Assembly: GCF_007833355.1 (NCBI RefSeq)
Contig: NZ_CP020914.1
Location: 482,047 to 546,046 of the forward strand
Reading direction: 5' to 3'
Length of the DNA: 64,000 nt
DNA from: Denitratisoma sp. DHT3
Lineage (GTDB): Bacteria; Pseudomonadota; Gammaproteobacteria; Burkholderiales; Rhodocyclaceae
The notes beneath the pieces are model-generated. The model was not told the DNA's origin. It saw nothing but the letters and a program-made list of their open reading frames with translations, and did no database searches. Made by a program: the position numbers and the translations under genes. Positions 8,662 to 54,868 of this stretch are shown piece by piece. Position 1 is the first letter of the stretch; each line of letters begins with the position of its first letter.

Positions 8662-9576
8662 ATGGCGATGCAGAGCAATGACGACGCCCTGCGCTTCGAC
8701 GGCCAGGTGATCGCGATCACCGGCGCCGGCAACGGTCTGGGGCGCAGCCATGCGCTGCTGCTGGCGAGCCGCGGCGCGCGGGTGGTGGTGAACGACCCGG
8801 CGCGGGACGCGGCGGGCAGCAGCGCCGCCGAGCAGGTGGTGGCGGAAATCCGCGCCGCCGGCGGCGTGGCCTGCGCCAGTCTGGATTCGGTGCTGGAGGG
8901 CGAGCGCATCGTCGAGGCCGCCCTGGACGCCTTCGGCCGCATCGACGGCGTGATCAACAACGCCGGCTTCATCCGCGACCGCGCCTTCCACAACCTGAGC
9001 GACGCCGAGTGGCAGGCCGTGGTCGACGTGCATCTGCAAGGGGCCTACCGCGTGACCCACGCCGCCTGGCCCCATCTGCGGCAACAGAACTACGGCCGGG
9101 TGCTGTTCACGGTCTCGGCCGCCGGCATCTACGGCAATTTCGGCCAGGCCAATTACGGCAGCGCCAAGCTGGCGCTCTACGGCCTCGCCCGCACGCTGGC
9201 GGTGGAAGGCGCACGCCACAACATCCGCGTCAATGCCGTCGCGCCGATCGCCGCCTCGCAGATGATGGGCGCGCGCATGCCCGAGTCCTGGCAGGCGCGC
9301 ATGACCCCGGAGGCGGTGAGCCCCGTGGTGGCCTGGCTGTGCCACGCCGACTGTCCGGAAACCGGCGGTCTGTTCGAGGCCGGCGGCGGCTGGTTCGCCA
9401 AGCTGCGCTGGGAGCGCAGCGCCGGCGCCACCATCGGCGATCACGCACCCCTGACTCCGGAAGCAGTGGCCCGCCAATGGGCGGTGGCGACGTCCTTCGC
9501 CGCCGCCGATCATCCCGCCGACGTGACCGAGGCCGGTACGATCATGTTCCAGCGCCTGGGGCTCGTTCCCGGCTGA
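8662..9576 (+). CDS. Short-chain dehydrogenase/reductase (MFE-2/17beta-HSD4-like)
   Basis: 304 residues from ATG 8662, two bases after the PQQ dehydrogenase stop. The open frame extends far upstream but only as an overlap of the previous gene. Cofactor motif ITGAGNGLGRSHA near residue 20, NNAG near residue 95, and catalytic Ser...YxxxK as SAAGIYGNFGQANYGSAKLAL. Together with its long C-terminal part this resembles the (3R)-hydroxyacyl-CoA dehydrogenase unit of peroxisomal-type multifunctional enzymes. With the MaoC hydratase just downstream it may carry out hydration/dehydrogenation steps of beta-oxidation on a branched or cyclic acyl-CoA. The specific substrate is unknown. Confidence 0.88.
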   Translation: MAMQSNDDALRFDGQVIAITGAGNGLGRSHALLLASRGARVVVNDPARDAAGSSAAEQVVAEIRAAGGVACASLDSVLEGERIVEAALDAFGRIDGVINNAGFIRDRAFHNLSDAEWQAVVDVHLQGAYRVTHAAWPHLRQQNYGRVLFTVSAAGIYGNFGQANYGSAKLALYGLARTLAVEGARHNIRVNAVAPIAASQMMGARMPESWQARMTPEAVSPVVAWLCHADCPETGGLFEAGGGWFAKLRWERSAGATIGDHAPLTPEAVARQWAVATSFAAADHPADVTEAGTIMFQRLGLVPG

Positions 9577-25325: not shown

Positions 25326-25607
25326 TTGCGCTGGCCCGCCACCCTGGTGCTGATCGTTCTGGTCGCGCTGCTGCAGTATCCGCTGTGGTTCGGCAAGGGC
25401 GGCTGGTATCGGGTGTGGGAGATGGATCGCCAGCTCAGCGCCCAGCGCGAGCTGAACCAGAAGCTGGAGCAGCGCAATGCCGGACTGGATGCCGAGGTCC
25501 GCGATCTCAAGTCGGGTTACGGCGCGATCGAGGAGCGGGCGCGCTATGAGCTCGGTCTGATCCGCGACGGCGAAGTCTTCGTGCAGATTCCTTCCCGCCG
25601 CCCCTGA
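25326..25607 (+). CDS. ftsB: Cell division protein FtsB
   Basis: 93 residues starting at a TTG (25326) preceded by CGAGGTCG, which can serve as ribosome-binding site; no ATG fits. A single N-terminal transmembrane helix ([17 protein letters not shown]) is followed by a short coiled coil ([21 protein letters not shown]) and a periplasmic tail. This is the size and topology of FtsB, which with FtsL and FtsQ forms the divisome regulatory trimer. The place immediately after eno is the normal one in proteobacteria. Confidence 0.92.
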
Positions 25608-25619
25608 CCTGAATTGATT

Positions 25620-25648
25620 TTGCCCATTCTTCATGAAGGGCATACAAT
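25620..25648 (+). promoter_or_regulatory. Candidate sigma-70 promoter of the globin-kinase/c-di-GMP operon
   Basis: TTGCCC (25620-25625) and TACAAT (25643-25648) with a 17-bp spacer, in the gap between ftsB and the globin-coupled kinase. A short inverted repeat CCCCG/CGGGG (25649-25653, 25666-25670) follows and could form a 5' leader hairpin. Prediction from consensus and spacing. Confidence 0.5.
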
Positions 25649-25684
25649 CCCCGGAATTTTGTTTGCGGGGAATGGTTCGTGGGC

Positions 25685-27298
25685 ATGAGTCAGGAAGTAC
25701 TCGACAGCATTGTCGAGGAGTTGGGCCTGAATCCAGACGATTTCCAAAGACGCAAGGACTATCTGGGGTTGGACGAGGGCGATGCGGCTCGTCTGCGTGC
25801 GTTGCAGTCCGAAGCCGACCGGCTGAAAAACGTTTTTGCGGATCGATTCGACAAGGCGTTCGGCCGCTCCGAAGAATTCGATGATGTATTGGCAAAGGCC
25901 ACGCACATCCAGGAGCAGATGCGCACCGATCACGGCAATCAGCTGTCGGCGATCGTTTCCAGCGGGTTCGACCTTGACTATGCTCGGGAGCGTCTGCGGA
26001 TAGGATTGGCCCATCAGCGCGTCGGCCTCAAGCCCGAGTGGTACGTGGGATCCCTGGCCTCCCTGCTGGAAGAGCTGTTGCCGGCCGCCTTGCGGGCGTG
26101 CGAGGGCGACGCGGAGCGTTTCAGCGCCACGGCGCTCTCCCTGTTCAAGGTCTGCCTGCTGGACATCGAACTGGTCATCAGCGCCTACTTCCATGCCGAC
26201 CAGAAGCATCTGCGCTTCCTGGCCAAGGCCTTCGAGAGCGACCTGGAGGGCGTGCTGATCACCGACCTGTCCGGCACCATCATCCACGCCAGCTACCTGA
26301 CGCAGGAAATCTCCGGCTACGCGCCCGAGCAGCTGGTGGGGCAGAACATCAGGCTGCTGCTTTCCGAGCGCAACGAGGAGCACCTGTACAAGCGCTGGGC
26401 GCGCGAGGCCGTGGACGACATCTGGCGCGGCGACGTGTGGCATCGCCATGCCGGTGGCCACGACTACCTGGCGCGGATGAGCTTCGCCCCGGTCAAGAAC
26501 GAGGCAGGAGCGGTCACTCACTACGTGAGCGAGTATTCGGACATCACCGACGCCTGGGAAGCCGAGCAGGCCCTGAAGGCGCGCACCGAGGAACTGGCCC
26601 GTTCCAACCGGGAACTGGAACAGTTCGCCTATGTGGCCTCGCACGACCTGCAGGAGCCCCTGCGCATGGTGGCCAGCTACACCCAGCTGCTGGCGCGGCG
26701 CTACAAGGGCAAGCTGGACCAGGATGCCGATGAGTTCATCGGTTACGCGGTGGACGGCGCGACCCGGATGCAGGTGCTGATCAACGATCTGCTCAAGCTT
26801 TCCCGCGTCGGTACGCGCGGCAAGTCGTTCGCCTCCACCGATTGCGGCCGGGTGCTGGACTCGGCGCTCGCCAATCTGTCGGTGGCGGTGCAGGAAAGCG
26901 GTGCCGCGGTGACGTGGGACGCCATGCCGGTCGTGATGGGGGACGACACCCAGCTGATCCAGTTGTTCCAGAACCTGATCGGTAACGCGCTCAAATTCCG
27001 CGCGGCGACAGAGTCTGCGCAGATCCATGTGGGTGCCCGCCGCGTCGATGGCGCCTGGGAGTTCTCGGTGCGGGACAATGGCATCGGCATCGCCCCGGAA
27101 TACTTCGAGCGGATTTTCGTGATCTTTCAGCGCCTGCACAGCAAGGCCGAATATCCGGGAACCGGGATCGGTCTGGCCTTGTGCAAGAAAATCGTCGAGC
27201 GCCACGGCGGTCGTATTTGGGTGGAGTCCCGCAGCAACGAGGGCACCACGTTCTTTTTCACCATCCCGGACAAGGAGAGTGGGATCCATGGACATTGA
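25685..27298 (+). CDS. Globin-coupled sensor histidine kinase (globin-PAS-HisKA-HATPase)
   Basis: 537 residues from ATG 25685 (a GTG two codons earlier is possible). Residues about 30-170 form a protoglobin-type sensor: [20 protein letters not shown] has the family pattern in which His110 is the likely proximal haem ligand. A PAS domain follows (about 180-290, [12 protein letters not shown]... then [11 protein letters not shown]), then HisKA with phosphoacceptor His320 ([14 protein letters not shown]), and the ATPase with N-box [15 protein letters not shown] and GTGIGLAL. No membrane segment, so it is a soluble kinase probably sensing O2 or NO. It overlaps the downstream receiver gene, which is its likely phosphorylation target. 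Confidence 0.87.
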
Positions 27299-27737
27299 CG
27301 ATATCGGTCGGCCGGCGGAGTTCCTGCTGGTCGAGGACAACCCCGGAGACGTGCGCCTGACGCAGGAAGCCTTGCGGGAATGCAAGCTGCGCAACAATCT
27401 GTCGGTGGTCGGGGACGGCGTCGAGGCCCTGGCCTTTCTGCGCCGCGAGGGCAAGTATCAGGACGTACCGCGACCGGACGTGATTCTGCTGGACCTGAAC
27501 CTGCCCAAGAAAGGCGGCCACGAGGTGCTGGCCGAAATCAAGGCGGATCCGGTGCTGCGCCGGATTCCGGTGGTGATCATCACCTCTTCGGAAGCCGAAA
27601 AGGATGTCCTGGCCAGCTACGACCTGCACGTCAATTGCTATGTCAACAAGCCGGTCGATCTCGATCAGTTCATCAAGGTGGTGCAATCCGTCGGCACCTT
27701 CTGGCTGACCATCGTCAAGTTGCCGGATGAAAATTGA
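27288..27737 (+). CDS. Single-domain response regulator (Rcp1-like receiver)
   Basis: 149 residues from ATG 27288 (GTG at 27279 is an alternative), overlapping the kinase gene by 11 bp. It is a lone receiver: acidic pair in [13 protein letters not shown], phosphoacceptor Asp69 in VILLDLNLP, Ser/Thr switch in [12 protein letters not shown] and Lys in [12 protein letters not shown]. Insertions and the [13 protein letters not shown] start resemble the Rcp1-type receivers that partner phytochrome-like kinases with the [11 protein letters not shown]isKA seen upstream. With no output domain it probably relays phosphate or binds a protein target. It is the obvious first partner of the globin kinase. 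Confidence 0.88.
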
Positions 27738-27758
27738 TATCGGAAGGAACATGGTGTC

Positions 27759-29483
27759 TTGAACAACAAGAAACTGAACATTCTTCTGGTGGAGGACAGC
27801 TGGGGCGACTATCGTCTGGTGTCGGACATGCTGAATGAATGCATGCAGGAAGGGTTCGAGCTGCTGCATGCCGATCAGCTCGCTGCCGCGATTCCCTTCC
27901 TGGAACCCGGCGAGGTGGATGTCATCCTGCTCGATCTGGAACTGCCCGACGTGGGGGGGCTCGATACCCTGGTCAAGATGCATGCGCTGGCCCCCGACAT
28001 TCCCATCGTTGTGCTGAGCCAGATCGAGGATGAGTCGCTGGCGGTGCGGGCCGTGCGCATCGGCGCCCAGGATTTCCTGGTCAAGAGCCACATCAGCGGT
28101 CCCCTCCTGACCCGCTCCTTGCGCTACGCGCTGGAACGGCGGCGGCTGGAGGAGCATCTGTACCGCCTGGCGCACCATGACGTATTGACCGGGCTGCCCA
28201 ACCGCAAGCTGTTCTACGACCGTTTCGGTCGTGCTCTGGCCCAGGCGCGCCGTTACCAGAAGCCGCTGGCGCTGATGCTGTTGGATTTGAACGGCTTCAA
28301 GGGCATCAACGACAACTTCGGCCATCATGTCGGCGACGAACTGCTGAAGCAGGTGGCCGAGCGGTTGTCGTCCGTCCTGCGCGCAACCGACTGCGTGGCG
28401 CGGCTGGGTGGAGACGAATTCATCGTCTGCACCGGCGAACTGGCCGACATTCAGAGCACCGCCCATGTCGCCCAGAAGATGCTGGACGTGCTGGACGTGC
28501 CCCTCGTCATCGGATCCACCACGTTCAACGTCTCGGCCAGCGTCGGCATCGCCCTCTATCCCGAGGATGGCGAAAACATGGAGGTGCTGGTGCGCAATGC
28601 CGATGCGGCGATGTACCAGGCCAAGCGCCAGGATGGCGCCGGGAGCAGGTTCAGTTTCTATTCCCGGCAACTGGATGCCGCCAACCAGCAGCGGCGGGAA
28701 CTGCATGAATTGCTGCGCAAGGCGTTCGACGAAGGATGCTTCGTCGTCAATTACCAGCCCCAGGTCGATCTGCACAGCGGCCGCACGATCGGTGTCGAAG
28801 CGCTCTTGCGCTGGCATGACGACAGCGGTGCGGCGGTGATGGGACCTGACCAGTTCATTCCCGCCATGGAGGAATCCGGTCTGATTCTGGAGGTGGGGGA
28901 GTGGGTGCTGCAGACGGCCTGCCAGCAGGCCGCCAAATGGATGCGGGAGGCCGAGCGGCCGCTGAAGGTCGCGGTGAATCTTTCCGTGCGCCAGTTTCGC
29001 GACCCCCATCTCGCCGCGCGCGTCAGCCGTGCGCTGGAAACGTTCGGTCTGCCCGGCAAGTGGCTGGAGCTCGAATTCACCGAGGAAGCATTGCAGGACG
29101 ATGAGCAATTGGCCCAGGAAACCCTCCAGCAGCTCAATCGCCTGGGGGTGCGCCTGGCGCTGGACAACTATCTCGGGCGCTTTCTTTCGCTGCGGGATCT
29201 GAAGCGTTTCCCGATCCATTCCATCAAGCTCGACCGGACCATCATCCGGGGCATGACCGAAAGCCCGGAGGATGCCGCGATCGCTCAGGCGGTGATCTCG
29301 GTGGCCCATGTGTTCAAGATGAAGGGCGTCGCCGAAGGGGTGGAGACGCGGGACCAGGCCGATCTGCTGCGCCAGCAGGCCTGCGATGACGCCCAAGGCT
29401 ACATGTTCGCCAAGCCGCTCTCGGCGGCGGCCTTGACTGAGTTGCTGCGCGTCGGCGAGGAAGCACCGCATAAAATTCAATGA
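27759..29483 (+). CDS. Receiver-GGDEF-EAL protein with degenerate EAL loop
   Basis: 574 residues from TTG 27759, placed by a GGAAGGAAC ribosome-binding site ten bases upstream; no in-frame ATG fits. Receiver (1-120, phosphoacceptor Asp59), GGDEF domain (130-300) with intact GGDEF at 217-221 and I-site RATD at 208-211, and EAL domain (315-574). The EAL domain keeps E347-A-L, NLSVRQ, ELEFTEE, IKLDR and AEGVET, but the DDFGTG loop reads DNYLGR (469-474). The second Asp, needed for metal binding, is Asn, and loop 6 is lost. It should be a diguanylate cyclase with a regulatory or inactive phosphodiesterase domain. Confidence 0.9.
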   Translation: MNNKKLNILLVEDSWGDYRLVSDMLNECMQEGFELLHADQLAAAIPFLEPGEVDVILLDLELPDVGGLDTLVKMHALAPDIPIVVLSQIEDESLAVRAVRIGAQDFLVKSHISGPLLTRSLRYALERRRLEEHLYRLAHHDVLTGLPNRKLFYDRFGRALAQARRYQKPLALMLLDLNGFKGINDNFGHHVGDELLKQVAERLSSVLRATDCVARLGGDEFIVCTGELADIQSTAHVAQKMLDVLDVPLVIGSTTFNVSASVGIALYPEDGENMEVLVRNADAAMYQAKRQDGAGSRFSFYSRQLDAANQQRRELHELLRKAFDEGCFVVNYQPQVDLHSGRTIGVEALLRWHDDSGAAVMGPDQFIPAMEESGLILEVGEWVLQTACQQAAKWMREAERPLKVAVNLSVRQFRDPHLAARVSRALETFGLPGKWLELEFTEEALQDDEQLAQETLQQLNRLGVRLALDNYLGRFLSLRDLKRFPIHSIKLDRTIIRGMTESPEDAAIAQAVISVAHVFKMKGVAEGVETRDQADLLRQQACDDAQGYMFAKPLSAAALTELLRVGEEAPHKIQ

Positions 29484-29492
29484 TCGGCCATC

Positions 29493-31556
29493 GTGCGCAT
29501 TCTTTTAGTTGAAGACAATCCGGGTGACGCCCACCTGCTGAGGTTGCAACTGGGCGAGGCCCATGCCGACGGCCACATCGGGTATTACGAATACGTCCAT
29601 GTCGCGACCCTTGCGGATGGACTGAAAGCAATGGCCGACAGGACTTTCGACATCATCCTGATCGACCTGTCGCTGCCGGATGCGCACGGCCGCGAGTCCT
29701 ATCTGCGCATTCAGCAGGGGGCGCCGGACCTGCCCGTGGTGGCCTTGACCGGCAATGACGACGAGGCGCTGGCGGCGGAACTGGTGGCGTCGGGGGCTCA
29801 GGACTATCTGATCAAGGGGCAGGTGGATGCCCGCTTGCTGGCCCGCGCGCTGCGTTACGCCATCGAGCGCAAGCGCAGCGAGGAGAAGCTGCGCCTGGTG
29901 GCGCAGGTGTTCGAGGTGGCGCTGGAAGGCATTCTGGTCACCGACGTCGACCAATCGGTGATCAGCGTCAATCGGGCGTTTTCCGACATCACCGGCCATG
30001 CGGAGGCCAACGTCGTCGGGCGTTCGATGTTCGGCCTGCATCAGAGCGAGGGACTGTTCCACAAGGTCTGGGCAACCCAGTCGAGCAAGGAGCAATGGCA
30101 GGGGGAGGCCATCTGCCACCGCGCCAGCGGCGAGGACTTCCCGATCTGGCTCAACGTCAACGCGGTGAAGAACGCCTTGGGCGGGATTACCCATTTCGTC
30201 GCCGCCTTCAGCGACATCACGGCGTTGAAACGAACCGAGGAGCGTCTGCGCCACATCGCCCATCATGACACGCTGACCTCGCTGCCCAACCGGATGCTGT
30301 TCGAGGACCGCATGGAACAGGCCATGGCGCAGGTGCGGCGCTCCCTGTCCCTGGCGGCGGTGCTGTTCATCGATCTGGATCGCTTCAAGCTGATCAACGA
30401 TACCCTGGGCCATGCCCAGGGCGATACCCTGTTGCGCAGCGCCGCCCAGCGCCTGCGCGGCTGCGTGCGGGAGGTGGATACGGTGGCCCGCCTGGGCGGC
30501 GACGAGTTCGCCATCATCCTGCGGGATCTCAATTCCCGCGACGATGCCGCCATGGTGGCGCGCAAGATCCTGGAAGCCATGGACCAGGCTTTCCTCCTGG
30601 AGTCCCAGGAAGTGTTCGTCACCGCCAGCATCGGCATCGCCATGTACGGCCACGAGGAACAGGTCGACAGCAATGTCATGGAACAGGCCGATATCGCCAT
30701 GTACCACGCGAAGCGCACCGGCCGCAACACCTACCATTTCTACTCCGAGGACATGAACGCCCTGAGCCGGCAGCGGTTGGCGCTGGAAACCGATTTGCGG
30801 CGGGCGCTGGAACGCGACGAGTTCGTGCTCCACTATCAGCCCCAGGTGGACCCGGGCAGCGGGGAGCTGATCGGGGTCGAGGCATTGCTGCGCTGGATGC
30901 ATCACGACCGCGGCCTGGTCATGCCTTCCGAATTCATTCCGATGCTGGAGGAAACCGGCATGATCATTCCGGTCGGGGAGTGGGTGATGCGAACCGCCTG
31001 CCTCCAGGCCAGGCGCTGGATCGACGAGGGGCGCCGCCCCTTGCGCATGGCGGTGAATCTTTCCGCGCGCCAGCTCAGGGAAAGCAATCTGCCGGAGCGT
31101 GTGCGCCTCATCCTGGAGGAAACGGGGCTGTCGCCGGAATTGCTGGAGATCGAACTGACCGAGAGCATCGTCATGGAAAATGCCGGCGAGGCCGTTACGG
31201 CCCTGAACCGGTTGAAGGCGCTGGGTGTGCGCATCGCCCTGGACGACTTCGGCACCGGGGCCTCGTCGCTGGGCTATCTGAAGCACTTCCCGGTCGACAC
31301 CCTGAAGATCAGCAGCGCCATCATCGTCGAACTGGAGGACGAAGCCGATGCCGCCATCGCCGGCGCCGTGATCGCCATGGCGCGCAACATGAAGCTTTCG
31401 AGCGTCGCCGAGGGTGTGGAAAACGTCAAACAGCTCGATTTTCTGCGCCGCGAGCAGTGCGACAGCATCCAGGGCTACCTGATCAGTCGCCCCATGTCCG
31501 CCGAGGCGCTGACCGGGATGCTGGACAAGCTGCCGCCTCAGGCGGCAGGAGGCTGA
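29493..31556 (+). CDS. Receiver-PAS-GGDEF-EAL c-di-GMP enzyme
   Basis: 687 residues from GTG 29493, nine bases after the previous stop. Receiver (1-125, Asp58), PAS (130-245, ILVTDVDQSVISVNRAF then FSDITALKRTEE), GGDEF (250-425, intact at 335-339 with I-site REVD 326-329) and EAL (430-687). The EAL domain has E463-A-L, VNLSARQ, IELTES, a full LDDFGTGASSLGYL and AEGVEN. The usual KID motif reads KISS (605-608), so one residue near the metal site is changed, but the rest is canonical. It is probably bifunctional, or a phosphodiesterase balancing the preceding cyclase. All four genes from 25685 run in one operon. Confidence 0.9.
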   Translation: MRILLVEDNPGDAHLLRLQLGEAHADGHIGYYEYVHVATLADGLKAMADRTFDIILIDLSLPDAHGRESYLRIQQGAPDLPVVALTGNDDEALAAELVASGAQDYLIKGQVDARLLARALRYAIERKRSEEKLRLVAQVFEVALEGILVTDVDQSVISVNRAFSDITGHAEANVVGRSMFGLHQSEGLFHKVWATQSSKEQWQGEAICHRASGEDFPIWLNVNAVKNALGGITHFVAAFSDITALKRTEERLRHIAHHDTLTSLPNRMLFEDRMEQAMAQVRRSLSLAAVLFIDLDRFKLINDTLGHAQGDTLLRSAAQRLRGCVREVDTVARLGGDEFAIILRDLNSRDDAAMVARKILEAMDQAFLLESQEVFVTASIGIAMYGHEEQVDSNVMEQADIAMYHAKRTGRNTYHFYSEDMNALSRQRLALETDLRRALERDEFVLHYQPQVDPGSGELIGVEALLRWMHHDRGLVMPSEFIPMLEETGMIIPVGEWVMRTACLQARRWIDEGRRPLRMAVNLSARQLRESNLPERVRLILEETGLSPELLEIELTESIVMENAGEAVTALNRLKALGVRIALDDFGTGASSLGYLKHFPVDTLKISSAIIVELEDEADAAIAGAVIAMARNMKLSSVAEGVENVKQLDFLRREQCDSIQGYLISRPMSAEALTGMLDKLPPQAAGG

Positions 31557-32899: not shown

Positions 32900-34720
32900 C
32901 TATTCCCGGCGGTCGTCCGACGCGAAGCGGAAAGTGTTCTTGCCGTTCTTTTTCGCCGCGTACATGGCGCTGTCCGCCTGAGCGAGGATGGTCTCGGGCG
33001 ACGTCGCCGGATCGACGAACAGGGCGATGCCGACGCTGGTCGAGCATTGGAACTGTCCGTTGCTCAAACAGTAGGGTTGGGACAGGCTGGCGATGATCTT
33101 CTCGGCCACCACCCGGGCCTGGACGGCCGCGTGCGCGCTGGATTCGTCCAGATCGTCGAGCAGGACGATGAACTCGTCGCCGCCCAGGCGGGCGACGGTG
33201 TCGGCTTCCCGCACGTGGGCGTTCAGCCGCTGCGCCACTTCGATCAGCAGTTCGTCGCCCAGGCGGTGCCCCTGGGTATCGTTCAGGGTCTTGAAATTGT
33301 CCAGATCGAGGAACAGCAGGGCGCCGTGCTTGGCAAAACGGGTGCGCTTGGCGATGGCGTGGCCCAATCGTTCCATCAGCAGGCGGCGGTTGGGCAGCGC
33401 GGTCAAGGGATCGTAGAAGGCCAGGCCGAGAATCTTCGCCTCGGCGGCCTTGCGTTCGGTGATGTCGGCGAAGCTGCCCACGTAGTGGCTGATCCGGCCC
33501 GCATCATCCTTGACCGTCGTGATGGTCAGCCATTTGGGATAGACGTGCCCGTCCTTGTGGCGGTCGAAGATCTCGCCCTGCCAATGTCCCTCGCGTGCCA
33601 GTGTCAGGTAGATCTGGTGGAAGAACTCGTCGTCGTGGCGGCCCGAATTCAGGATCGAGGGATTCCGGCCGACGACTTCGGCCGCCGAATAGCCGGTGAT
33701 CTCGGTGAAGGCGCGATTGACGCGGATGATGGCGCGATCGGCGTTGGTGATCATGATGCCTTCCTGGGTTTCGAAAGCGGTGGCGGCGATGCGCAGTTGC
33801 TGCTCGTGCTTCTTTCTCTCGGCGTCCAGTTGCTGGAGCTGGCGCCGCGTTTCGGCCAGCCAGCCCATGATGCTGTCCTTGCGCCCGGGCGCCACCGGAA
33901 TCTCCTGGCTGAAGTCGCCGCGGCCCAGCCGGGCAATGTGGCCATGCGCTTCATCGATGCCGCCGCCCAGCGTTCTGCGCATGAACCCATGGATGCTCCA
34001 GAGCGAGTACATCAGCGCCAGGCTCAGCGCGGCAAACAGGTAGCGGATGACGGCAGCCCGCCGGATGGCGCTCTCGACCGCGCTCTGGGTGCGGGCCTCC
34101 AGCATCCGCAGGAAATCGTCGATGGGCCGCATGATGTTGGCCTTCTGGCGCAGATATTCCTCGTCGAACAGCAGCGACCGTGCGCGGGCGACGGATGTCC
34201 GATCGCCGGGGCCGGCGGCTTGGACCAGGTTGATCGCCTCCTGTTCGCGCCGGATCAGGGCGTCCGAATGGGTCTTGGCCTCGGCCAGCTTGCCCAGTTC
34301 CGCGGCAGTGAATCCGGCTTTCTGCATCAACGCCAGCAGGCTGACGCGCTGATCGCTGTCTGGCCGGGGCGGCTTGCCGGTTGCGCTGTAGAGCTCCCAG
34401 TAGGGATGGTCATAACCCACGGGACGGGGCTGCCGGCCATCCCGGATGTCGATGATGCGCTGGTAGTAGCGGATATAGACCGGGTCGCCCGTATCCACGT
34501 AGCTGCGCACCATCCGTGTCAGATCATCCGACGATTGGCGCAGCTCGTCGGCCAGCTTCAACGATTGATGGCGCTGCGAGTTGGCGACATCGATGGCTTT
34601 TTCCGCGCGAACGTAGAGCGTGAAGACGACGACCAGCGCCAGGAGCAGGAGCACTGAAAGCAGGGCGCTGGAGAGATACCCCGGCAGTTCCAGCTTGAAT
34701 TGTTTCACGCGCAGACACAT
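32900..34720 (-). CDS. Membrane-bound PAS-GGDEF diguanylate cyclase
   Basis: 606 residues. One N-terminal membrane helix (LSSALLSVLLLLALVVVF), a periplasmic helical sensor of about 170 residues, a second membrane helix (VIRYLFAALSLALMYSLW), a HAMP-like linker, PAS (about 310-430, IMITNADRAIIRVNRAF) and GGDEF (about 440-606). The active site reads GGDEF and is preceded by I-site READ, so it should be an inhibitable cyclase. There is no EAL. It converges on acpH. This is the third c-di-GMP protein in 7 kb, but its promoter is separate from the globin operon. Confidence 0.9.
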   Translation of the reverse strand: MCLRVKQFKLELPGYLSSALLSVLLLLALVVVFTLYVRAEKAIDVANSQRHQSLKLADELRQSSDDLTRMVRSYVDTGDPVYIRYYQRIIDIRDGRQPRPVGYDHPYWELYSATGKPPRPDSDQRVSLLALMQKAGFTAAELGKLAEAKTHSDALIRREQEAINLVQAAGPGDRTSVARARSLLFDEEYLRQKANIMRPIDDFLRMLEARTQSAVESAIRRAAVIRYLFAALSLALMYSLWSIHGFMRRTLGGGIDEAHGHIARLGRGDFSQEIPVAPGRKDSIMGWLAETRRQLQQLDAERKKHEQQLRIAATAFETQEGIMITNADRAIIRVNRAFTEITGYSAAEVVGRNPSILNSGRHDDEFFHQIYLTLAREGHWQGEIFDRHKDGHVYPKWLTITTVKDDAGRISHYVGSFADITERKAAEAKILGLAFYDPLTALPNRRLLMERLGHAIAKRTRFAKHGALLFLDLDNFKTLNDTQGHRLGDELLIEVAQRLNAHVREADTVARLGGDEFIVLLDDLDESSAHAAVQARVVAEKIIASLSQPYCLSNGQFQCSTSVGIALFVDPATSPETILAQADSAMYAAKKNGKNTFRFASDDRRE

Positions 34721-41283: not shown

Positions 41284-41858
41284 CTCCTTCTGGTTCTAAA
41301 CCGACTCCAAATCCATCGAAGACATCCTCAACCGCGGCGGCCAGTCTAATGGTTTCGTCCAGCGGCCACAATACGTCCGTCTTTGTTGAAACTCGCACGG
41401 AGCGCGGCTTGCCGTTGGTTTCTTGAGTGCACCGCACAAGGCGCCGGCAGTCGATCGGGTTGCCTTCTTCATCGCAGCTTGCCGTGGATGCCGATCACTT
41501 GGATGTTCCGACTTTCGTCCGACGGCCGGTTCCGCCATGTCGTTGGCGTGTTGCCTTGCAGTAATCCGACATCGCTACCTGTCCCGGGCGCGCGGACGCG
41601 CCGCAGCCTCAAGCTCCGGTGCGACGATAGCGGTCGCGGCGAATCGTCGTCTTGCCTGTCACGGCACTCGGGGGTGATCCAATGCGCAGAGATTCCTTGG
41701 GGAAATGGGTTAACCACGGCGACACGGCGGGCACGGCGCAAACCCTCGGTTTTCGGGTTTTCTCACTTCACCCCTGACTGCACCCATTGGGTGATTCATC
41801 AAAACGATGGGAGCCTTTGATTTTTCGCCGTGCCCGCCGTGTCGCCGTGGTTCAAGTC
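41284..41858. other. 575-bp noncoding spacer between the AraC gene and the Mo island
   Basis: No convincing gene. Short open frames on both strands give Ser/Arg-rich translations without motif, and one derives from the inverted repeat itself. The 5' part should carry the AraC promoter (a run ATCTCCTTCTGGTTCTAAAC lies just upstream of its start). The 3' part is occupied by a long perfect inverted repeat (41712-41852, separate entry), so the spacer ends in an element rather than in a regulatory region. Confidence 0.6.
41712..41852. repeat. Perfect 27-bp inverted repeat flanking an 87-nt core
   Basis: Left arm 41712-41738 (AACCACGGCGACACGGCGGG then CACGGCG) is the exact reverse complement of the right arm 41826-41852. 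The core has its own palindromes: AAACCC/GGGTTT at about 41740-41760 and CACCCATTGGGTG at 41781-41793. It encodes no protein and ends a few bases before the stop codon of the molybdopterin gene. Total length 141 bp. The form (terminal inverted repeats, no ORF) suggests a miniature mobile or REP/BIME-like element. Only one copy is present here. Confidence 0.65.
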
Positions 41859-43469
41859 TCAAACCAGTGCCGGCGCATCGGTGTCGGTGCGGGCCGCTTC
41901 GGCGGCGACGGCCACGGTCCGTACTTCCCGCGCGTACTGTTCGAGCAGGCCGCGGGCGCCGGTGGCGCCGCTGAGCGACAGCATCTCGGCGAAGTGGCGG
42001 CGCGGCCAGAGCACAGGGCGGCCGTGCCGGCCGCCCTGTTCCGGCACCAGCACCGCCGGATCGGCGGGGTCGAAGGCGGCGATCAGGCGGTCCACGTCGT
42101 CGGCGCTCGGCGCGGAGAGGGTGGCCGGCATCACGACGACGCCGTCCAGGTCGTTCGGCAGCGCGCGCAATCCGCAGCGCAGGGAGCCGGCCAGGCCCGA
42201 CGCGTGGCCGGCGTTATGGACCAGGGAGACGGGACGGTCCACCAGCGCCGCCTCCACGTCCTCGGCGCCATGGCCGGTGACGACCATCACCTGGCAGGCG
42301 CGCGAGGCGCAGGCCGCATTGACCACCCGGCGCACCGCGGGCACGCCGTCGGTCTGCCGCAGCAGCCTGTTTTCCTCGCCCTGCCGCGCGGGGCCGCCCG
42401 CCGCCAGCACCAGCGCCGCGATCCGGGGCGGGCACGGCGGCGGGGTCGACTCGGCTTCGGCGGGCGGCTGCGGGGCAGGGGAGGTTTCCTCTTCGGCCGC
42501 GCTGTGCAGCAGGCCGCCGACGCCCAGCCCCATGATCTCGCGCGGGCCGATCGGCAGGCCGGCGCACAGGCGCCGCAGCAGGATGTCCAGCCCGTTGTGG
42601 CTGCTGGAGCGGGCGCAGCCGGGCAGGTTGAACACCGGCACCGCCCCGATGCGCGCGGTGAGCAGCATGTTGCCCGGTTCCACCGGCATGCCGAAATGCT
42701 CGATGGTGCCGCCGGCGGCACGGATGGCCGCGGGCACCACGTCGCCCCGGTCCTTGCTGACGGTGGCGCCCAGCACCAGCAGCAGATCGCAGCCCGCCGC
42801 CAGGGCCTGGCCGACGGCGCCGGCGACGCCGGCCACGCTGTGGGCGCAGCGCAGTTCCAGCGCCAGCGGGCTGCCCAGGGCGGCGAGCCGGGTCCGGGTG
42901 GCGGCCACGGCCAGATCCAGCATGCGTTCCGTGGTTCCGGAGGAGACGCTCATCACCAGGGCCGCGCGCCGCGGCGCCAGGGGGGCCAGCGCCAGAGGCG
43001 CTCCTGCGCCGGCTTCCCGGCGCCAGCGCTCCAGGATGCCGGCGGAGACGGCGAAGGGAATGATCTTCACCGTGGCGACGCGCTGGTCCTTGCCCACCAG
43101 GGCGTCGGGCGCCAGGGTGGCGAGGGTGACGTTCTCGCTGATCAGGTTGAGGCGGTCGATGCGTTCGCGGTCCAGGCGCAGCAGACCCGGCGTCCGGGCG
43201 TAGAGGTTGCAGCGACCGGTGTAGGGCGACCGCGCCGCGACGTGCTCGCTCTCCAGCAGCCCGGCGACGAAGCGGGCCGCGTTGTCCTCGTCGAATTCGC
43301 CGGCTTCGACGCGGGCGCCGGAGATGCCGGAGATTCCGGCGGCGACCAGGGCGGCCGCATCGGCCGCCGAGAGCACGCGCCCCTTGCGCAGGGTCAGGTG
43401 CGGCAGCTTGAGGGTGTGGGCGAGGCGGACGCCTTCGGCCTGGGTGCTGGGAAATTCCGCGAAAATCAT
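41859..43469 (-). CDS. MoeA-like molybdopterin-binding domain fused to MocA-like cytidylyltransferase
   Basis: 536 residues in two parts. Residues about 1-340 are a MoeA/CinA-like molybdopterin-binding domain (VMSVSSGTTERMLDLAV, LVLGATVSKDRGDVVPAAI, MPVEPGNMLLTARIG, VFNLPGCARSS). Residues about 355-536 are a MobA/MocA-like nucleotidyltransferase (IAALVLAAGGPARQGEENRLL, VMVVTGHGAEDVEAAL, GLAGSLRCGL, HGRPVLWPRRHF). The fusion is known in Mo-hydroxylase operons and should install or finish the cytosine-dinucleotide cofactor for the upstream XDH-family enzyme. The signature loop is divergent (ARQG instead of SRRMG; Arg in place of the usual Lys). It is last in the leftward operon, 24 bp after coxE. 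Confidence 0.85.
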   Translation of the reverse strand: MIFAEFPSTQAEGVRLAHTLKLPHLTLRKGRVLSAADAAALVAAGISGISGARVEAGEFDEDNAARFVAGLLESEHVAARSPYTGRCNLYARTPGLLRLDRERIDRLNLISENVTLATLAPDALVGKDQRVATVKIIPFAVSAGILERWRREAGAGAPLALAPLAPRRAALVMSVSSGTTERMLDLAVAATRTRLAALGSPLALELRCAHSVAGVAGAVGQALAAGCDLLLVLGATVSKDRGDVVPAAIRAAGGTIEHFGMPVEPGNMLLTARIGAVPVFNLPGCARSSSHNGLDILLRRLCAGLPIGPREIMGLGVGGLLHSAAEEETSPAPQPPAEAESTPPPCPPRIAALVLAAGGPARQGEENRLLRQTDGVPAVRRVVNAACASRACQVMVVTGHGAEDVEAALVDRPVSLVHNAGHASGLAGSLRCGLRALPNDLDGVVVMPATLSAPSADDVDRLIAAFDPADPAVLVPEQGGRHGRPVLWPRRHFAEMLSLSGATGARGLLEQYAREVRTVAVAAEAARTDTDAPALV

Positions 43470-43493
43470 GATGTCCTCCGGCGGCGTGGGGCC

Positions 43494-44657
43494 TCAGGCG
43501 CCGATCGCGCGCAGCGTCTTCGCGAGTTGCGACAGGCTCTGCAGGTTGTGGGCTGGCAGGAAATGGTCCAGGTAGGGGAGCGCGCCGCGCATGCCCTGGG
43601 TCAGGGGCTGGTAGCCCGGCGTGCCGAGCAGGGGGTTGAGCCAGAGCAGCGTCCGCGCCCGTTGCCGCAGGCGGGCCATCTGCTCGCGCATTTCGGCGGC
43701 GTCGCCGCGGTCCCAGCCGTCGCTGAGGAAGATCACCGCCGTCCGTCCGCCCAGCAGCCGCGCGGCATGCCGCTGATTGAACTCCCGCAGGCTGGCGCCG
43801 ATGTGGGTGCCTCCGGCCCAGTCGTGCACCGTGGCGGCCACCTGGCGCAGGGACGCCGCGACGCCCTTGCTCTTCAGCAGCTCGGTGATCATCGTCAGGC
43901 GGGTGGAGAACACGCCGACCTCCAGATTCGGCAGCTCGCGCCGCAGGGCGTACATGAATTCGATCAGGAACGCGCTGTAGCGCTGCATGGAGCCGCTGAC
44001 GTCGCAGAGCAGCACCAGCCGCGTCTTGCGGATGCGGCGCGTGAGGTAGGGCAGGGGGCAGACGCCCTCGGCGGTGTGGAAGGCGCGGCTGCGCAGCAGG
44101 CGCCGCAGATCCGGCGTCCGGCCGTGGCGGCATGCCGCGTGGCGGCGGCTGCGCCGGTTCGCCAGCGCCGCCGCCAGTTCGCGCACCAGGCGGCGGGCGC
44201 GTTCCACGTCGGCGTCGGTGAGGGTGCCCAGGTCGCGCAGGGCGAGAACCTCGTCCGGACTGTAGGAGAGCTTCAGCGCCTGGCGCTTCTCGTCGTCGCC
44301 CTCGCCGCCCTCGCCGGGCAGCATCAGGCGGGCGCCGGCGGCGCTCTCCTCGGGCGCGTCCTCCTCGCGGTCGCCGTCGCGGCGGCGGCGGATCGGAATC
44401 CGTTCGGGGGATTCCCAGTAGCGGGCGAACACCGCGTCGAAGCGGGGAATGTCCTCGCGCCGCGAAACCAGGGTGGCGCGCGCGGCGGCGTAGAAGTCCT
44501 CGCGCCGGGTGATCTCCACATGGCGGAAGCACTGGCAGAGGTCGAGCAGGTTCGCCGGGCTGACCGGCAGGTCGGCTTCGTGCAGGGCCCGGGAAAATCC
44601 CACCACGTGCTCCAGCACCGTGCGCGGGGCGGGGAGCGGAGCGACGGCGGGCGCCAT
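43494..44657 (-). CDS. CoxE-like VWA-domain protein
   Basis: 387 residues. The C-terminal half is a von Willebrand A domain with a MIDAS site, LVLLCDVSGSMQRYSAF, then TRLTMITELLKSKG, WAGGTHIGASLREFN and VIFLSDGWDRGD. The N-terminal half is charged and arginine-rich. This is the CoxE family. In CO-dehydrogenase operons CoxE works with the AAA+ protein CoxD in maturation of the Mo enzyme, including metal and sulfur insertion at the active site for true CODH. It follows the AAA+ gene by 30 bp. Whether the site here receives an extra metal is unknown. Confidence 0.87.
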   Translation of the reverse strand: MAPAVAPLPAPRTVLEHVVGFSRALHEADLPVSPANLLDLCQCFRHVEITRREDFYAAARATLVSRREDIPRFDAVFARYWESPERIPIRRRRDGDREEDAPEESAAGARLMLPGEGGEGDDEKRQALKLSYSPDEVLALRDLGTLTDADVERARRLVRELAAALANRRSRRHAACRHGRTPDLRRLLRSRAFHTAEGVCPLPYLTRRIRKTRLVLLCDVSGSMQRYSAFLIEFMYALRRELPNLEVGVFSTRLTMITELLKSKGVAASLRQVAATVHDWAGGTHIGASLREFNQRHAARLLGGRTAVIFLSDGWDRGDAAEMREQMARLRQRARTLLWLNPLLGTPGYQPLTQGMRGALPYLDHFLPAHNLQSLSQLAKTLRAIGA

Positions 44658-44687
44658 GGCGGAACGGAGCCGAAGTCCGGGGCCGGG

Positions 44688-45645
<958 letters not shown>

Positions 45646-45656
<11 letters not shown>

Positions 45657-48600
45657 GCCGCTCCACCTGCACGAACGCGGCGCGGTCGGCGCGCTTCACC
45701 AGTTCGTAGAGGTCGTTGGGCGCGTTGAAGGAATTGCGCACGACCACGCCCTCGGCGAACAGCGCGTCCTGCACCGCCGCCGAGAGGGTGTGCAGCGGCG
45801 CGCCGCCGCCTTCCCCCATGCCCTTCGCGCCGTTGTAGCTGAACGGCGACGGGGTCTCGATATCGTCGTAGGCCAGGTCGGGCATGTTCATCACGGTGAT
45901 TGGCGTGTAGTCGGTGAACGAGCCGGTGAGCAGGTTGCCCTCCTTGTCGTAGACGTAGCTCTCCATCAACGCGGCGCCGATGCCGTGGGCGGTGGCGCCA
46001 TGGACCTGGCCGGCGACGATCTTCGGGTTGATCACGTTGCCGCAGTCGTCCACCGCCGCATAGGCCAGGATCTTCGGCACGTAGGTGCGGCGGTCCACCT
46101 CGACCACCGCGATATGCAGTTGCGAGGCGTAGGTCAGGGTCAGGTTGCCCATCTTCTTCTCGGTGTCGGGAATCTTGAAGGGCGGGCGATAGACGTGGCG
46201 GATGTTGAGGGTGACGTCGGCCAGCTCCGGCGGCTGGCTGGCGGTGTTGATGTTCACCATCGCCGACAGGCCCCAGTAGTTGATGCTGCGGTCGGTGCCC
46301 TTGACCCGCAGCTCCGGACCCTGCTGGCCGATGCCGAACTCCAGGTCGTCCTCGTTGGCTTCGAGGGCGAAGGCGGCCAGCTTCTTCATCTCCTTCTTCA
46401 GTTTCTGGCAGGCGCCATGGACCGCCGAGAGGCCGGTGACGGCGAACTGGCTGGCATACGAGCCGGAATGGCCGCCGTGGCTGTTGAAGATGGTGTCGAA
46501 GCCGGTGCGCACTTCCACCAGGTCGGGGCGGATGCCCAGTTCGTCGGCCACCACCTGGGCGGTCGTGGTCTCGTGGCCCTGGCCCGAGGGGGTCGAGCCG
46601 AGCATCACCACCACGGTGCCGTCGAGGTCCAGCTTGATCGTCGCCACCTCGGAGTTGCCGGAGAAGGGCAGGTAGGGATTGACGATGCGCGCCTGGCCGA
46701 AGTTGTTGGTGCCGGAATCCAGTGTGGTGCCGATGCCGATGCCGATCCAGCGTCCCTCGGCGCGGGCCTCGGCCTGCTTCCGCCGCCAGTCGTCCCAGCC
46801 GATCAGGGCCTTGGCCTTTTCCAGCAGCAGCGGGTAGTTGCCGGAGTCGTAGACGCAGCCGTTGGGCGTGGTGTAGGGAAACTCGCGGATGTAGTTGTTG
46901 AGCCGCATCTGGTCGGCCGGGATGCCCAGCTCGTGGGCGCAGATGTCGATCACGCGCTCCATGAACCAGAGCTGCTGGAGCCGCGAGTAGCCGCGGTTGG
47001 GCGCCGAGGGCCCCTTGTTGGTGACCACCTGGTTGAAGTCGATGCGGATGTTGCGCAGCTTGTAGCAGGCCGGCAGCACCTGCGACCAGATCACGCAGCC
47101 CAGCGGCTCGTAGCGCGGATAGGCGCCGCAGTCGTCGATGTGCTTGGAGCGCACGGCGGTGATCACGCCGTCCTTGTCCAGCGCCACCTCGGTGTCGAGG
47201 TAGACTCGCTCGCTGCCGTGGCCGCCGGCCTGCATGTGCTCGCTGCGCGTCTCCACCCACTTCACCGCGCGGCCGCCGCTCTTCTTCGAGGCCAGGGCGG
47301 CCAGCGCCATGTAGGGATAGTTGCCGATCTTGTTGCCGAAGCTGCCGCCCACGTCCTGAGTCTTGGCGCGCACCTGGTCGATGGACAGGCCCAGTGCCGG
47401 CGCGATCATCTGGATCACGATGGCGGGGAAGGAGTTGTTGCAGAAGAAGTCCACGCCGCCGGTCGGCGTCCAGGTGGCCACCACCGCGTTGGTCTCCAGA
47501 GGGGTGCTGGAGAAGCGATGGAAGTCCATCTGGCCGATCTTGACCACGTGGGCCGCCTCGACGAACGCCTTCTCCACCTCGCCGTACTCGTAGACGCCGT
47601 GCCAGTGGTGGTTGGTGCCCATGCCCGGATGCAGCACGGACTTGTCCTCCAGGGCCGTCTTCCAGTCGGTGACGACGGGCAGGGGCTCGTATTCCACGTC
47701 CACCAACTGGGCCGCGTCCATGGCGATGCGCGGGTTCTCCGCCACCACCGCCACCACCGGCTCGCCCTGGTAGATGGCCTTGTCGACGGCCATCGGGTAG
47801 TCCTTGATGTTCTGCGCATCGCCGGGGCCGATCTGCATGAAGGGCGTGCACACGGCGGCGATCTCCTTGCCGGTGAGGGTGCACACCACGCCCGGCAGGG
47901 CCTCGGCCCGGGAGGTGTCGATGCGGACCACGCGGGCGTGGCCGTAGGGGGAGCGCACCAGGCTCATGTGCAGCATGCCGCTTTGCTTGTAGTCGTCCAC
48001 GAAGAGGCCCTTGCCCCGTACCAGGCGGCTGTCCTCCTTGCGCGAGAGCGATGCGTGCACCCACTTGTCGCCGCCGTGGCGCTCGACGATCTGGGCGAAA
48101 TCCTTGTAGCGCGGCGGCGCCGCGAGGGAGGCGAGGCTGGGTGAGATGTCCGCGGTTTCCAGCGCCGGGCCGGTCCAGCCGGCGATCAGCGCCTCGGTGT
48201 CCACCGTCTCGGCGGCGGCCTCGGCCGGCATCGCCGTCTCTTCCTGCTTGCGCAGGCGGCGCATCAGGCCGGACATCCAGCCCGACTTCTGCTCGGCCTG
48301 GGCCGCCTTGCGGGCGGCGGCCTCCCGCTGATACTCGGGCGACATGGCCTGCTGCAGGCTGGTGATCACGGTGCCGATCTGCTGCTCGGCGTAGCCGCGC
48401 ATGCCGCCGCCGGCGAGCGAGAGGATCTTGCCCACCAGTTGCACCTCGCCCTGCCAGTTGACGCGGGTGCCGCCGCCGGCGGGCTCCAGGGCGAAGGAGG
48501 TGGTCATGGTGTAGGCGCCGCCCATCACGCGGCCGCTGCCGACGTAGGTGGCGTGGCTGGGAGCCGATTTCTTCTGCAGCGCCAGCTGGGTGGTCGCGGT

Positions 48601-52185: not shown

Positions 52186-52261
52186 TTCCGCGCGGCGCGG
52201 CGACGTTCGGCCCTGGTTTCAATCGCATCTCGGTTTGCGGTTCCGGAGGAGGAGCAACGAA

Positions 52262-54868
52262 GTGAGCAATCGACAGCCTGAGCAGAATTCCCTGAAGCCG
52301 GGGCGGTGGGTCAAATCGACCTGCAAGATGTGCCTGCACTCCTGCAATACGCGGGTGCACATCACCGACGAAGGGGTGATCAACAAGATCGAGGGCGAGC
52401 CCAGCAGCCCGAGCAACAACGGCCGGCTCTGCCCCAAGGGCAATGCGGCGATCCTGCGCCACTACGATCCGAACCGCTTCCAGACGCCGCTGCGCCGCAC
52501 GAATCCGCAGAAGGGTCCGGGCGTCGATCCGAAATGGGAGCCGATCAGCTGGGACGAGGCCTACGACATCGTCGGCCGTGAACTGAAGCGGACCCGCGAC
52601 GAGGACCCGCGCAAGCTGCTGCCCGCGATCAACAATTTCCAGAAGATCTTCCTCTGGGCCTGGCCGGCGGCGTTCGGCTCGGCGAACTTCTTCTCCTCGG
52701 TGGGCAACTTCTGCGGCGGCGGCTACCATCCGATGAACGGCTTCGTGCATTCGGCCTTCGCCGCGGCCAACGACGTCAATTACTGCAACTACTGGATCAA
52801 CAACGGCGGCGGCGACGGCTTCTCGTCCCATCTGCACACCGCCGCCCAGGCCAACCACGTCGCCAAGGCGCGCATCGAGCGCAACATGCGGGTGGTCACC
52901 GTCGAGCCGCGGCTGTCCATCGGCGGCGCCAAGGCCAACGAGTGGGTGCCGATCCGCCCGGCCACCGACCGCCAGTTCGCCCTCGGCCTGTGCCACGTGC
53001 TGGTGTATGAGAACCTCTTCGACGCCAAGTTTCTCAAGAAGGACACCAACGCTCCGTATCTGGTCGGACCCGACGGCTATTTCGTGCGCGACCGCGCCGG
53101 CGAGATCTACGTCTGGGACGCCAAGGACGGCTGCGCCAAGCTGTGGAACGATCCCTCGCTCAAGGACTTCGCCCTGGAGGGCGTCTACGAGGTGAATGGC
53201 GTCGCCTGCCGCCCGGCCTTCCAGCGCTTCAAGGACATCCTCGCCGAATGCACGCCGGAGCAGATGTCGGCGGTCACCACGGTGCCGGCGGAGACGATTC
53301 GCCGCATCGCCCGCGAATTCGCCAAGGCGGCCCAGATCGGCTCCTTCATCGAGATCGGCGACCGCATCCTGCCGCTGCGCCCGGCCGCCTACAACTACTA
53401 TCGCGGCGCCCAGGGCCACAAGTACAGCGCGATGGCCAACCAGGCGTTCAAGCTGGTGAATTTCCTGGTCGGCGCCATCGACACGCCGGGGGGGCACTGC
53501 GGCGCCACTCTCGACGACCAGATGGAGGACATCCGCGGCGGCTGCGGCGAGATCAAGCCGGGCGAGAGCGGCATGATGCACGCCAACCCGCACCAGTTGC
53601 ACCCGGAAGTGCCGTTCTCCTTTCCGCCCAACGAAGTGCACCTGATGGGCTATTTCCCGATCGGCGTCGATCCCGGCCACCTCGCGCAGGAAACCCTGCT
53701 GCACCCGGAGAAGTACAACCTCGACTATCGCCCGGACACGATGCTGCTGTGCCATGCCAACCCGATGTGGAACATCAGCGGCAGCCGCAAGGAATGGCAG
53801 CGGATCATGCGCGAGATGCGCTTCATCGTCGCCATCGACATCCTGCCCAACGAAAGCAACGAGTGGGCGGACATCATCCTGCCGGCCCACGATCTGCTCG
53901 AAACCTGGAACATGACCATGATCGAGCCGCCCCACCACGAGGGCATGTGCCTGCGCCAGCCGGCCACGCCGCCGCTCTACGACACGCGCAGTGAGGAGGA
54001 GATCTTCTACGAGCTTTCCAAGCGCATCGGCATCCTGGAGGGCTGGAACACGATCCTCAACTACGTCACCGGCTTCGTGATGAAGCCGGAGTTGATGCTG
54101 GAAACCAACCGCACCTACACCGACCGCGAGATCGCCGAGCGCAAGGGCAAGCTCTGGAACGGCAAGGACCTGGACTGGTACGTCGAGCACGGCCACGCGG
54201 TGACGCCGCGCCGGCCGGAGAAGTGGTACCGGCCCTGGGAAGGCATGCGGCTGCACTTCTACATCGAGGACATCCTGCGGGCGCGCGACGACCTGCGGCA
54301 GAAGATGGAGGAGGCGCGGGTGCCGATCCGCAGCGAGTGGGCGTGGGGCGACTACCAGCCCTTGCCGGACGCCCGTCCCGACCCGGTGCTGATGGAACCG
54401 CCCGAGTACGACATGTACGCGATCACCTTCAAGGACATCCAGATCAATTTCGGCGAGAGCACCAGCAATCCCTGGATCAAGGACATCACCTACAACGACC
54501 CGGTGCATACCTCGGTGCTGATCAACGCCGCCGCCGCCGCCGCGAAGGGGCTGCAAAGCGGCGACGTGGTGCGCATCGAGTCGCCCTACGGCAGCATCGT
54601 CGCGCGGCTCGCCACGTCCCAGGGCGTTCATCCGGAAACGGTGTGCGTGTCCAACGCCCTGACCCGGATGGCGATCCAGCACAGCGGCGTGCGGGTGGGC
54701 GGCGGCAGCTTCAACGACCTGCTGCCCGCCAACCTGGAGAACACCGACGCCTGCAGCGGCCAGCCGGAGACGGTGGCGCGGGTCAGGCTGGTCAAGCTCA
54801 CGGAACTGCCGCCCGAACTGGCGGCCGGCAACTCCGTGTATGGCGGACAGAACGGGAGGATGCACTGA
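52262..54868 (+). CDS. Mo subunit of a PadB-like CoA-ester oxidoreductase, copy 1
   Basis: 868 residues from GTG 52262, behind GGAGGAGGAGCAACGAA. DMSO-reductase family: an N-terminal [4Fe-4S] motif C21-x2-C24-x3-C28-x28-C57, then molybdopterin domains; Cys151 (VGNFCGGGYHP) is the likely Mo ligand. There is no twin-arginine or Sec signal, so it is cytoplasmic. Neighbours are a four-cluster ferredoxin subunit and an NrfD-like membrane protein. This cytoplasmic Mo-FeS-membrane set matches phenylacetyl-CoA:acceptor oxidoreductase (PadBCD), which oxidises the alpha carbon of an aryl-acetyl-CoA with quinone as acceptor. It overlaps the FeS gene (TGATG). A related substrate is as likely as phenylacetyl-CoA. 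Confidence 0.8.
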   Translation: MSNRQPEQNSLKPGRWVKSTCKMCLHSCNTRVHITDEGVINKIEGEPSSPSNNGRLCPKGNAAILRHYDPNRFQTPLRRTNPQKGPGVDPKWEPISWDEAYDIVGRELKRTRDEDPRKLLPAINNFQKIFLWAWPAAFGSANFFSSVGNFCGGGYHPMNGFVHSAFAAANDVNYCNYWINNGGGDGFSSHLHTAAQANHVAKARIERNMRVVTVEPRLSIGGAKANEWVPIRPATDRQFALGLCHVLVYENLFDAKFLKKDTNAPYLVGPDGYFVRDRAGEIYVWDAKDGCAKLWNDPSLKDFALEGVYEVNGVACRPAFQRFKDILAECTPEQMSAVTTVPAETIRRIAREFAKAAQIGSFIEIGDRILPLRPAAYNYYRGAQGHKYSAMANQAFKLVNFLVGAIDTPGGHCGATLDDQMEDIRGGCGEIKPGESGMMHANPHQLHPEVPFSFPPNEVHLMGYFPIGVDPGHLAQETLLHPEKYNLDYRPDTMLLCHANPMWNISGSRKEWQRIMREMRFIVAIDILPNESNEWADIILPAHDLLETWNMTMIEPPHHEGMCLRQPATPPLYDTRSEEEIFYELSKRIGILEGWNTILNYVTGFVMKPELMLETNRTYTDREIAERKGKLWNGKDLDWYVEHGHAVTPRRPEKWYRPWEGMRLHFYIEDILRARDDLRQKMEEARVPIRSEWAWGDYQPLPDARPDPVLMEPPEYDMYAITFKDIQINFGESTSNPWIKDITYNDPVHTSVLINAAAAAAKGLQSGDVVRIESPYGSIVARLATSQGVHPETVCVSNALTRMAIQHSGVRVGGGSFNDLLPANLENTDACSGQPETVARVRLVKLTELPPELAAGNSVYGGQNGRMH

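Follow-up and report, generated by a model that had tools for sequence, protein, structure and literature searches.

A globin-coupled histidine kinase cassette with two predicted, apparently opposed cyclic di-GMP outputs in Denitratisoma sp. DHT3

How might a globin that is joined to a histidine kinase control cyclic di-GMP (c-di-GMP), and why would one such kinase be followed by two enzymes of c-di-GMP turnover? The question is raised by four adjacent genes of Denitratisoma sp. DHT3 (assembly GCF_007833355.1), which lie in a stretch of 64,000 nucleotides of contig NZ_CP020914.1 (positions 482,047 to 546,046; hereafter the window, in whose numbering coordinates are given). They encode a globin-coupled histidine kinase (GcHK), a lone receiver and two receiver-bearing GGDEF-EAL proteins, here called B and C. 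The messenger sets the choice between swimming and biofilm growth, with O2 or nitric oxide (NO) as a main cue. We read the four genes as a compact, co-inherited haem-sensor two-component cassette in which c-di-GMP would be set by two outputs of opposite direction, and give this reading a probability of roughly 0.55.

The domain content proposed for the four genes in an earlier, sequence-only reading was confirmed by Pfam, with all matches above the cut-offs. Gene 1 (GcHK; 25679..27298, plus strand like the other three) contains a protoglobin domain (residues 20-175; 85.2 bits against a cut-off of 25), a PAS_9 domain (190-291), HisKA with H322, and HATPase_c. Gene 2 (27288..27737) is a single Response_reg domain of the Rcp1 type, gene 3 (B; 27759..29483) is Response_reg-GGDEF-EAL, and gene 4 (C; 29493..31556) is Response_reg-PAS-GGDEF-EAL; residue checks accompanied the Pfam assignments of B and C. 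As had been claimed, each of the three receivers retains its phosphoacceptor Asp (D72 of the lone receiver, counted from the GTG at 27279; D59 of B; D58 of C), and with it the conserved Lys and Thr/Ser. The genes are tightly packed, with an 11-bp overlap between genes 1 and 2 (27288-27298) and gaps of 21 bp and 9 bp before genes 3 and 4. To call the kinase soluble was reasonable because no stretch resembles a clear membrane helix; its highest 19-residue Kyte-Doolittle mean is 1.71 and falls within the globin domain. The GTG at 25679 is a likelier start for gene 1 than the ATG at 25685, since in the copy from a genome of the same genus (G083) a TTG lines up with this GTG, and the Met of the ATG corresponds to Ile.

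The gene order recurs in other genomes. The loci compared came from 48 genome stretches, chosen from longer match lists, and from an earlier kinase search, and they include at least 15 distinct protoglobin-PAS-kinase loci, the window counted. In 15 of 15 loci the genes after the kinase encode first a lone receiver and next a receiver-GGDEF-EAL protein. The full four-gene order picked out by the sequence-only reading was found in at least nine cassettes, namely the window, L169 (G083), L170, L171, L173, L179, L002 (Rhodocyclaceae AWTP1-18), L003 (Methylotenera mobilis 13) and L004 (Methylophilaceae SKW116). The fourth gene is missing in L174 and in a Leptospirillum sp. (L005), and four loci of one genus (L180, L182, L184, L185) have a GGDEF-EAL gene ahead of the kinase and a single receiver-PAS-GGDEF-EAL gene behind it. 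Recurrence of the order, in several genomes beside different neighbours, ruled out a chance cluster. Across eight cassettes (L002, whose globin is cut by a contig end, was left out), the pairwise identities of globin, kinase, lone receiver and the two outputs B and C are correlated, as expected for a unit that is inherited together. The cassette is uncommon, since the lone receiver was matched at E <= 1e-45 in 22 of the 390 genomes of the family sample; in eight of these the identity is at least 77%, seven with a globin kinase and one (G023, locus L248) with a globin-free PAS kinase. Loci L180 and L182 also encode another protein with GGDEF, globin and EAL matches, three genes 5' of the kinase.

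The sequence-only reading had treated the two outputs even-handedly, a view that the EAL domains do not support, B's being predicted dead and C's intact. In B the GGDEF motif and the RxxD I-site are intact, and loop 6 of the EAL domain reads DNYLGR in place of DDFGTG (D469, N470). In C the GGDEF motif, the I-site and every EAL signature residue checked are intact, including D584 and D585. Conservation was followed in the best 120 homologues listed for each protein, the window protein included. Among the B homologues, the receiver Asp, the GGDE letters and the metal and I-site residues are present in 120/120, and the Phe of GGDEF is Tyr once. Asn replaces the second loop-6 Asp in 118 of them, Gly in one and Lys in one, and none keeps both Asp; the catalytic Glu is lost in 55/120 and one Glu is Asp in 51/120. 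Among the C homologues, the second loop-6 Asp is kept in 115/120 (four Glu, one gap), the catalytic Glu in 115/120 and the first Gly of GGDEF in 112/120. All nine cassettes with both outputs combine a degenerate loop 6 in B with a canonical one in C, and the sole output of L174 has a degenerate EAL. Both loop-6 Asp are present in 13 of the 15 strong EAL matches in the DHT3 genome (four weak matches of 19 were left out), with B among the two exceptions. The other EAL domains of the fetched loci lack one or both Asp in 36 of 99 cases, a mixed baseline that includes domains of the DHT3 genome and counts the window's B again as L240.

These residues point to different activities. B has the residues of a receiver-controlled diguanylate cyclase and, with Asn470, lacks the EAL phosphodiesterase signature; since its GGDEF motif and I-site are kept and the second EAL metal Asp is never kept (0/120), it is predicted to be a diguanylate cyclase with a non-catalytic EAL domain. 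C carries the EAL phosphodiesterase signature, including both loop-6 Asp and the catalytic Glu, and is a phosphodiesterase candidate because the second Asp is so widely kept among its homologues. The broken signature in B and the intact one in C are plain in the DNA, and the direction of each output is predicted from them. The opposite conservation of the two EAL domains ruled out B and C as equivalent duplicates. What is new here is that the two are predicted to be non-redundant and to form an apparently opposed maker/breaker pair.

In the mechanism that we favor, a ligand or redox change at the globin haem, with His112 as its ligand, would reach the kinase core by way of the PAS linker and lead to autophosphorylation at H322. 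Phosphate would move to the lone Rcp1-type receiver, acting as a shared target, sink or timer, and also to B and C through their own receivers. B would be a phosphorylation-controlled diguanylate cyclase whose catalytically dead EAL domain is probably a c-di-GMP-binding or structural module, and C would be mainly a phosphodiesterase. A single gas signal would then act oppositely on synthesis and degradation, or drive the two one after the other.

A number of observations weigh against this reading, and they concern in turn the phosphate wiring, the sensor, the outputs and the transcript. The three receivers are of two types by sequence identity, the lone one on one side (35/125 residues identical to B and 33/120 to C, or 27-28%) and B and C on the other (50/123). 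The helix alpha-1 stretches of the three share pairwise 5-7 of 14 residues, and alpha-1 gave no specificity signal either way, mean matches of 14 being no higher within cassettes than between them (7.56 vs 7.76 for lone receiver and B, 7.11 vs 7.24 for lone receiver and C, 6.22 vs 6.51 for B and C). Phosphotransfer to B and C is a step that we infer from gene order alone. One part of the proposed branched pathway stood, namely a kinase with a globin fold and its His kept, in a conserved order with three receivers and two c-di-GMP enzymes; the branching itself has the gene order in its favor and, against it, the two receiver types and the lack of any gain in alpha-1 matches within cassettes.

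The same data fit, with a likelihood of perhaps one in four, a simpler circuit in which the kinase phosphorylates the lone receiver only, and B and C are just co-expressed with it and answer to other kinases or to protein contacts. A structure-relative search matched the kinase region best to 8f71 and next to bacteriophytochromes, and the nearest solved relatives of the lone receiver are 5te9, RcpA (1k68) and Rcp1 (1i3c). These relatives place the kinase and lone receiver in the phytochrome-kinase/Rcp1 class, here with a globin for its sensor. Rcp1 and RcpA are partners of phytochrome-type kinases, which favors such a restricted circuit, as does the different type of the B and C receivers. Both targets of the globin kinase NmpU have near-identical specificity residues (PMC6211767), to be set beside the 5-7 of 14 alpha-1 residues shared pairwise in the cassette. 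It is possible by analogy that the lone receiver acts as a sink, the role proposed for NmpT. Against a circuit confined to the lone receiver stands the order kinase, lone receiver, receiver-output, kept in all 15 globin-PAS-kinase loci.

A wider sample extends this argument beyond globins. It comprised 97 loci around such kinases and receivers (L006-L081, L248-L268), some cut by contig ends, and the search of genome contigs favored kinase motifs and so returned mainly non-globin kinases. The loci held 103 non-globin kinases with the DLQEPL motif; a lone receiver came next in 69, and in 48 of these 69 it preceded another receiver-bearing gene (24 receiver-kinase, 12 receiver-GGDEF-EAL, 5 receiver-GGDEF, 7 other), which again speaks against the lone receiver being the only target. 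The sensors of 10 Pfam-scanned non-globin kinases were sCache, CHASE8, dCache (below cut-off), GAF or PAS. The layout is therefore widespread, and the cassette is a globin-fitted form of it. B-type proteins also follow globin-free kinases (L248, L006), so B appears tied to the kinase-receiver module and not to haem. Locus L248 (7113-11539) has a PAS kinase without globin, a B carrying the DN signature and, at the position of C, a receiver-GGDEF gene.

The sensor is the second point of doubt. The haem-ligating proximal His is H112 in GcHK (26012-26014), with the motif around it kept, and is His in 34 of 37 aligned sequences; the protoglobin match and a predicted fold typical of globin-coupled sensors place the domain in that class. 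We infer haem binding at H112 and a ligand for the haem. The distal Tyr that stabilizes O2 in globin-coupled sensors is absent, the B10 position being Asp58 (25850-25852), the sole Asp among the 37 sequences; 24 of them have Tyr. O2 sensing, which the sequence-only reading had offered alongside NO, is therefore not safe. An altered pocket would also suit a globin that senses no gas here and serves as a redox, haem-level or dimerization module. That Asp58 is unique in the alignment, that Tyr replaces the proximal His in Methylotenera copies (L003, P0046, P0062), and that L248 has the module without a globin all favor this view, but His112 and its motif are kept, the predicted fold is that of a typical globin-coupled sensor, the closest relative (P0007, 75% identical) has Tyr at B10, and other residues could steady a ligand. 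Binding of NO and CO needs no distal Tyr. On balance, a globin that senses no gas seems doubtful to us, about as much so as a kinase confined to the lone receiver.

The genome encodes cd1-nitrite-reductase-family proteins (four matches, best E 1e-158), and the NosZ propeller was matched; with these genes, the cell probably both produces NO and disposes of it, living between oxic and denitrifying conditions, a physiology that fits either gas. A search of the genome (3,655,561 bases, single contig) found no second protoglobin. The PAS domain may offer another sensor, since its nearest solved structures include 3ewk (9.4e-18), which we take to be MmoS, and NifL (2gj3; 1.8e-11). In that case, a flavin-binding PAS would be the main sensor and the globin would merely tune it. 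The FAD-site residues of NifL are Ser39, Glu70, Trp87, Asn102, Tyr110 and His133 (PMC8063818, PMC12540587); by an eye reading of the alignment, with residue numbers worked out by hand, two of the six (Trp and Tyr) are kept in GcHK and the other four are Leu, Ile, His and Tyr. A flavin PAS of the NifL/MmoS type was set aside as main sensor on this count and seems improbable. If the sensor and output arguments are pressed together, the haem-globin kinase would drive a dedicated opposed pair through one phosphate branch point, with B's EAL domain fixed as a non-catalytic c-di-GMP reader that gives the pathway its own readout, C erasing the messenger, and the distal Asp making the globin a sensor of NO or redox state and not of O2. 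We regard this fuller version as unlikely.

For the outputs, C's GGDEF motif is intact too, so C may act as a cyclase and is possibly dual, like NarR. The sole output of the three-gene Leptospirillum copy has a canonical EAL domain. In the four variant cassettes (L180, L182, L184, L185), the degenerate EAL domain belongs to the receiver-PAS-GGDEF-EAL protein and the canonical one to the front GGDEF-EAL protein, although each still pairs one degenerate with one canonical domain. The variant cassettes lie at 8424-14177 in L180 and at 4330-10091 in L182. The correlated identities could have arisen from species descent alone.

A single transcript for the cassette is presumed and is a weak point. 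The 'one promoter' of the sequence-only reading corresponds to a promoter-like site, TTGCCC-N17-TACAAT (25620..25648, plus strand), found by consensus scan between ftsB and the kinase gene and ending 30 bp 5' of the GTG start. It matches at 9/12 positions, and the region holds three such sites against 1.1 +/- 0.8 in shuffled sequence, which falls short of supporting that claim. The scan found no terminator in the 71 bp between gene 1 and ftsB (25326..25607, same strand; NCBIfam PRK00888 above cut-off, Pfam DivIC), and the cassette could be co-transcribed with, or read through from, ftsB. In L170 the cassette can stand alone, because an opposite-strand open reading frame (8669-9448) separates the kinase from the eno-ftsB side. 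By eye, L169, from the same genus, has TTGTCA-N16-TACAAT at a like place. Also by eye, a palindrome, CTTCATGAAG (25629-25638), lies between the promoter-like hexamers of the window within an inverted repeat (25621-25642) and is a possible operator.

Globin kinases and haem-kinase-c-di-GMP systems are already known. The statement that globin sensors are usually fused to a cyclase leaves out AfGcHK of Anaeromyxobacter (proximal His99, distal Tyr45; PMC8697598) and NmpU of the Myxococcus xanthus NmpRSTU system, which is already branched in that it phosphorylates more than one receiver, including the likely sink NmpT (PMC11841059, PMC6211767). Like GcHK, both are soluble protoglobin histidine kinases. 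Unlike the cassette, they have a receiver-receiver partner and act finally on transcription through NmpR; in the window a PAS domain separates globin from kinase, the partner is one receiver of the Rcp1 type, the outputs are c-di-GMP enzymes, and the distal Tyr is missing. The PAS-less layout of AfGcHK and NmpU was found separately in L183 and L192, where protoglobin kinases lie beside receiver-receiver genes. In HnoX-HnoK-HnoB-HnoD and NosP-NahK-NarR, an NO signal reaches receiver-bearing c-di-GMP enzymes by way of a histidine kinase, a route like the one proposed here, and phosphorylation shifts NarR from cyclase to phosphodiesterase (PMC8846402). The sensor there is a separate H-NOX or NosP protein and not a kinase-fused globin, and the account consulted names one turnover enzyme per system, unlike the opposed pair predicted here; Pfam found no H-NOX or NosP among the four cassette genes. 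The cassette belongs with Cph1-Rcp1 by its kinase-core type, its lone-receiver type and the shared layout of kinase, lone receiver and receiver fusion, but its sensor is a globin and not a phytochrome, the Pfam scan of GcHK showing no GAF/PHY, bilin-binding sensor. In the globin-coupled diguanylate cyclases DosC/DgcO a protoglobin likewise feeds into c-di-GMP (PMC8846402), but as a direct fusion to the cyclase; in the cassette, a kinase and separate receivers would stand between the two. We found no description of this cassette in the available portions of the open-license literature on globin kinases, Rcp1/GGDEF proteins and Methylotenera globins, and those of PMC3770913, PMC6956133 and PMC8357829 do not mention it; a literature search around H-NOX also gave no result.

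As a self-contained module of four proteins with a likely gas input and an apparent maker/breaker pair, the cassette should allow phosphate flow and messenger turnover to be rebuilt in vitro. The fixed Asp-to-Asn change in B would be a clear case of an enzyme domain retained for a non-catalytic purpose, and the absent distal Tyr provides a natural variant for studying how globin sensors choose among gases.

Upstream of the cassette, profile matches give the order CTP synthase, a DAHP_synth_1-family gene (presumably kdsA, judged by its place), enolase and ftsB. Another c-di-GMP gene lies nearby, an open reading frame of 606 amino acids for a PAS-GGDEF protein (32900-34720, minus strand), 1.3 kb past the cassette and convergent with it. 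Proteins of 513-523 amino acids with a protoglobin match occur near hybrid kinase-receiver and receiver genes in L181, L187, L188, L189 and L190. Elsewhere in the window, two long plus-strand open reading frames without a Pfam match (1313 and 848 amino acids; 41787-48144) overlap long minus-strand ones, and two large molybdopterin oxidoreductases are encoded on the plus strand at 52235-54868 and 56552-59179.

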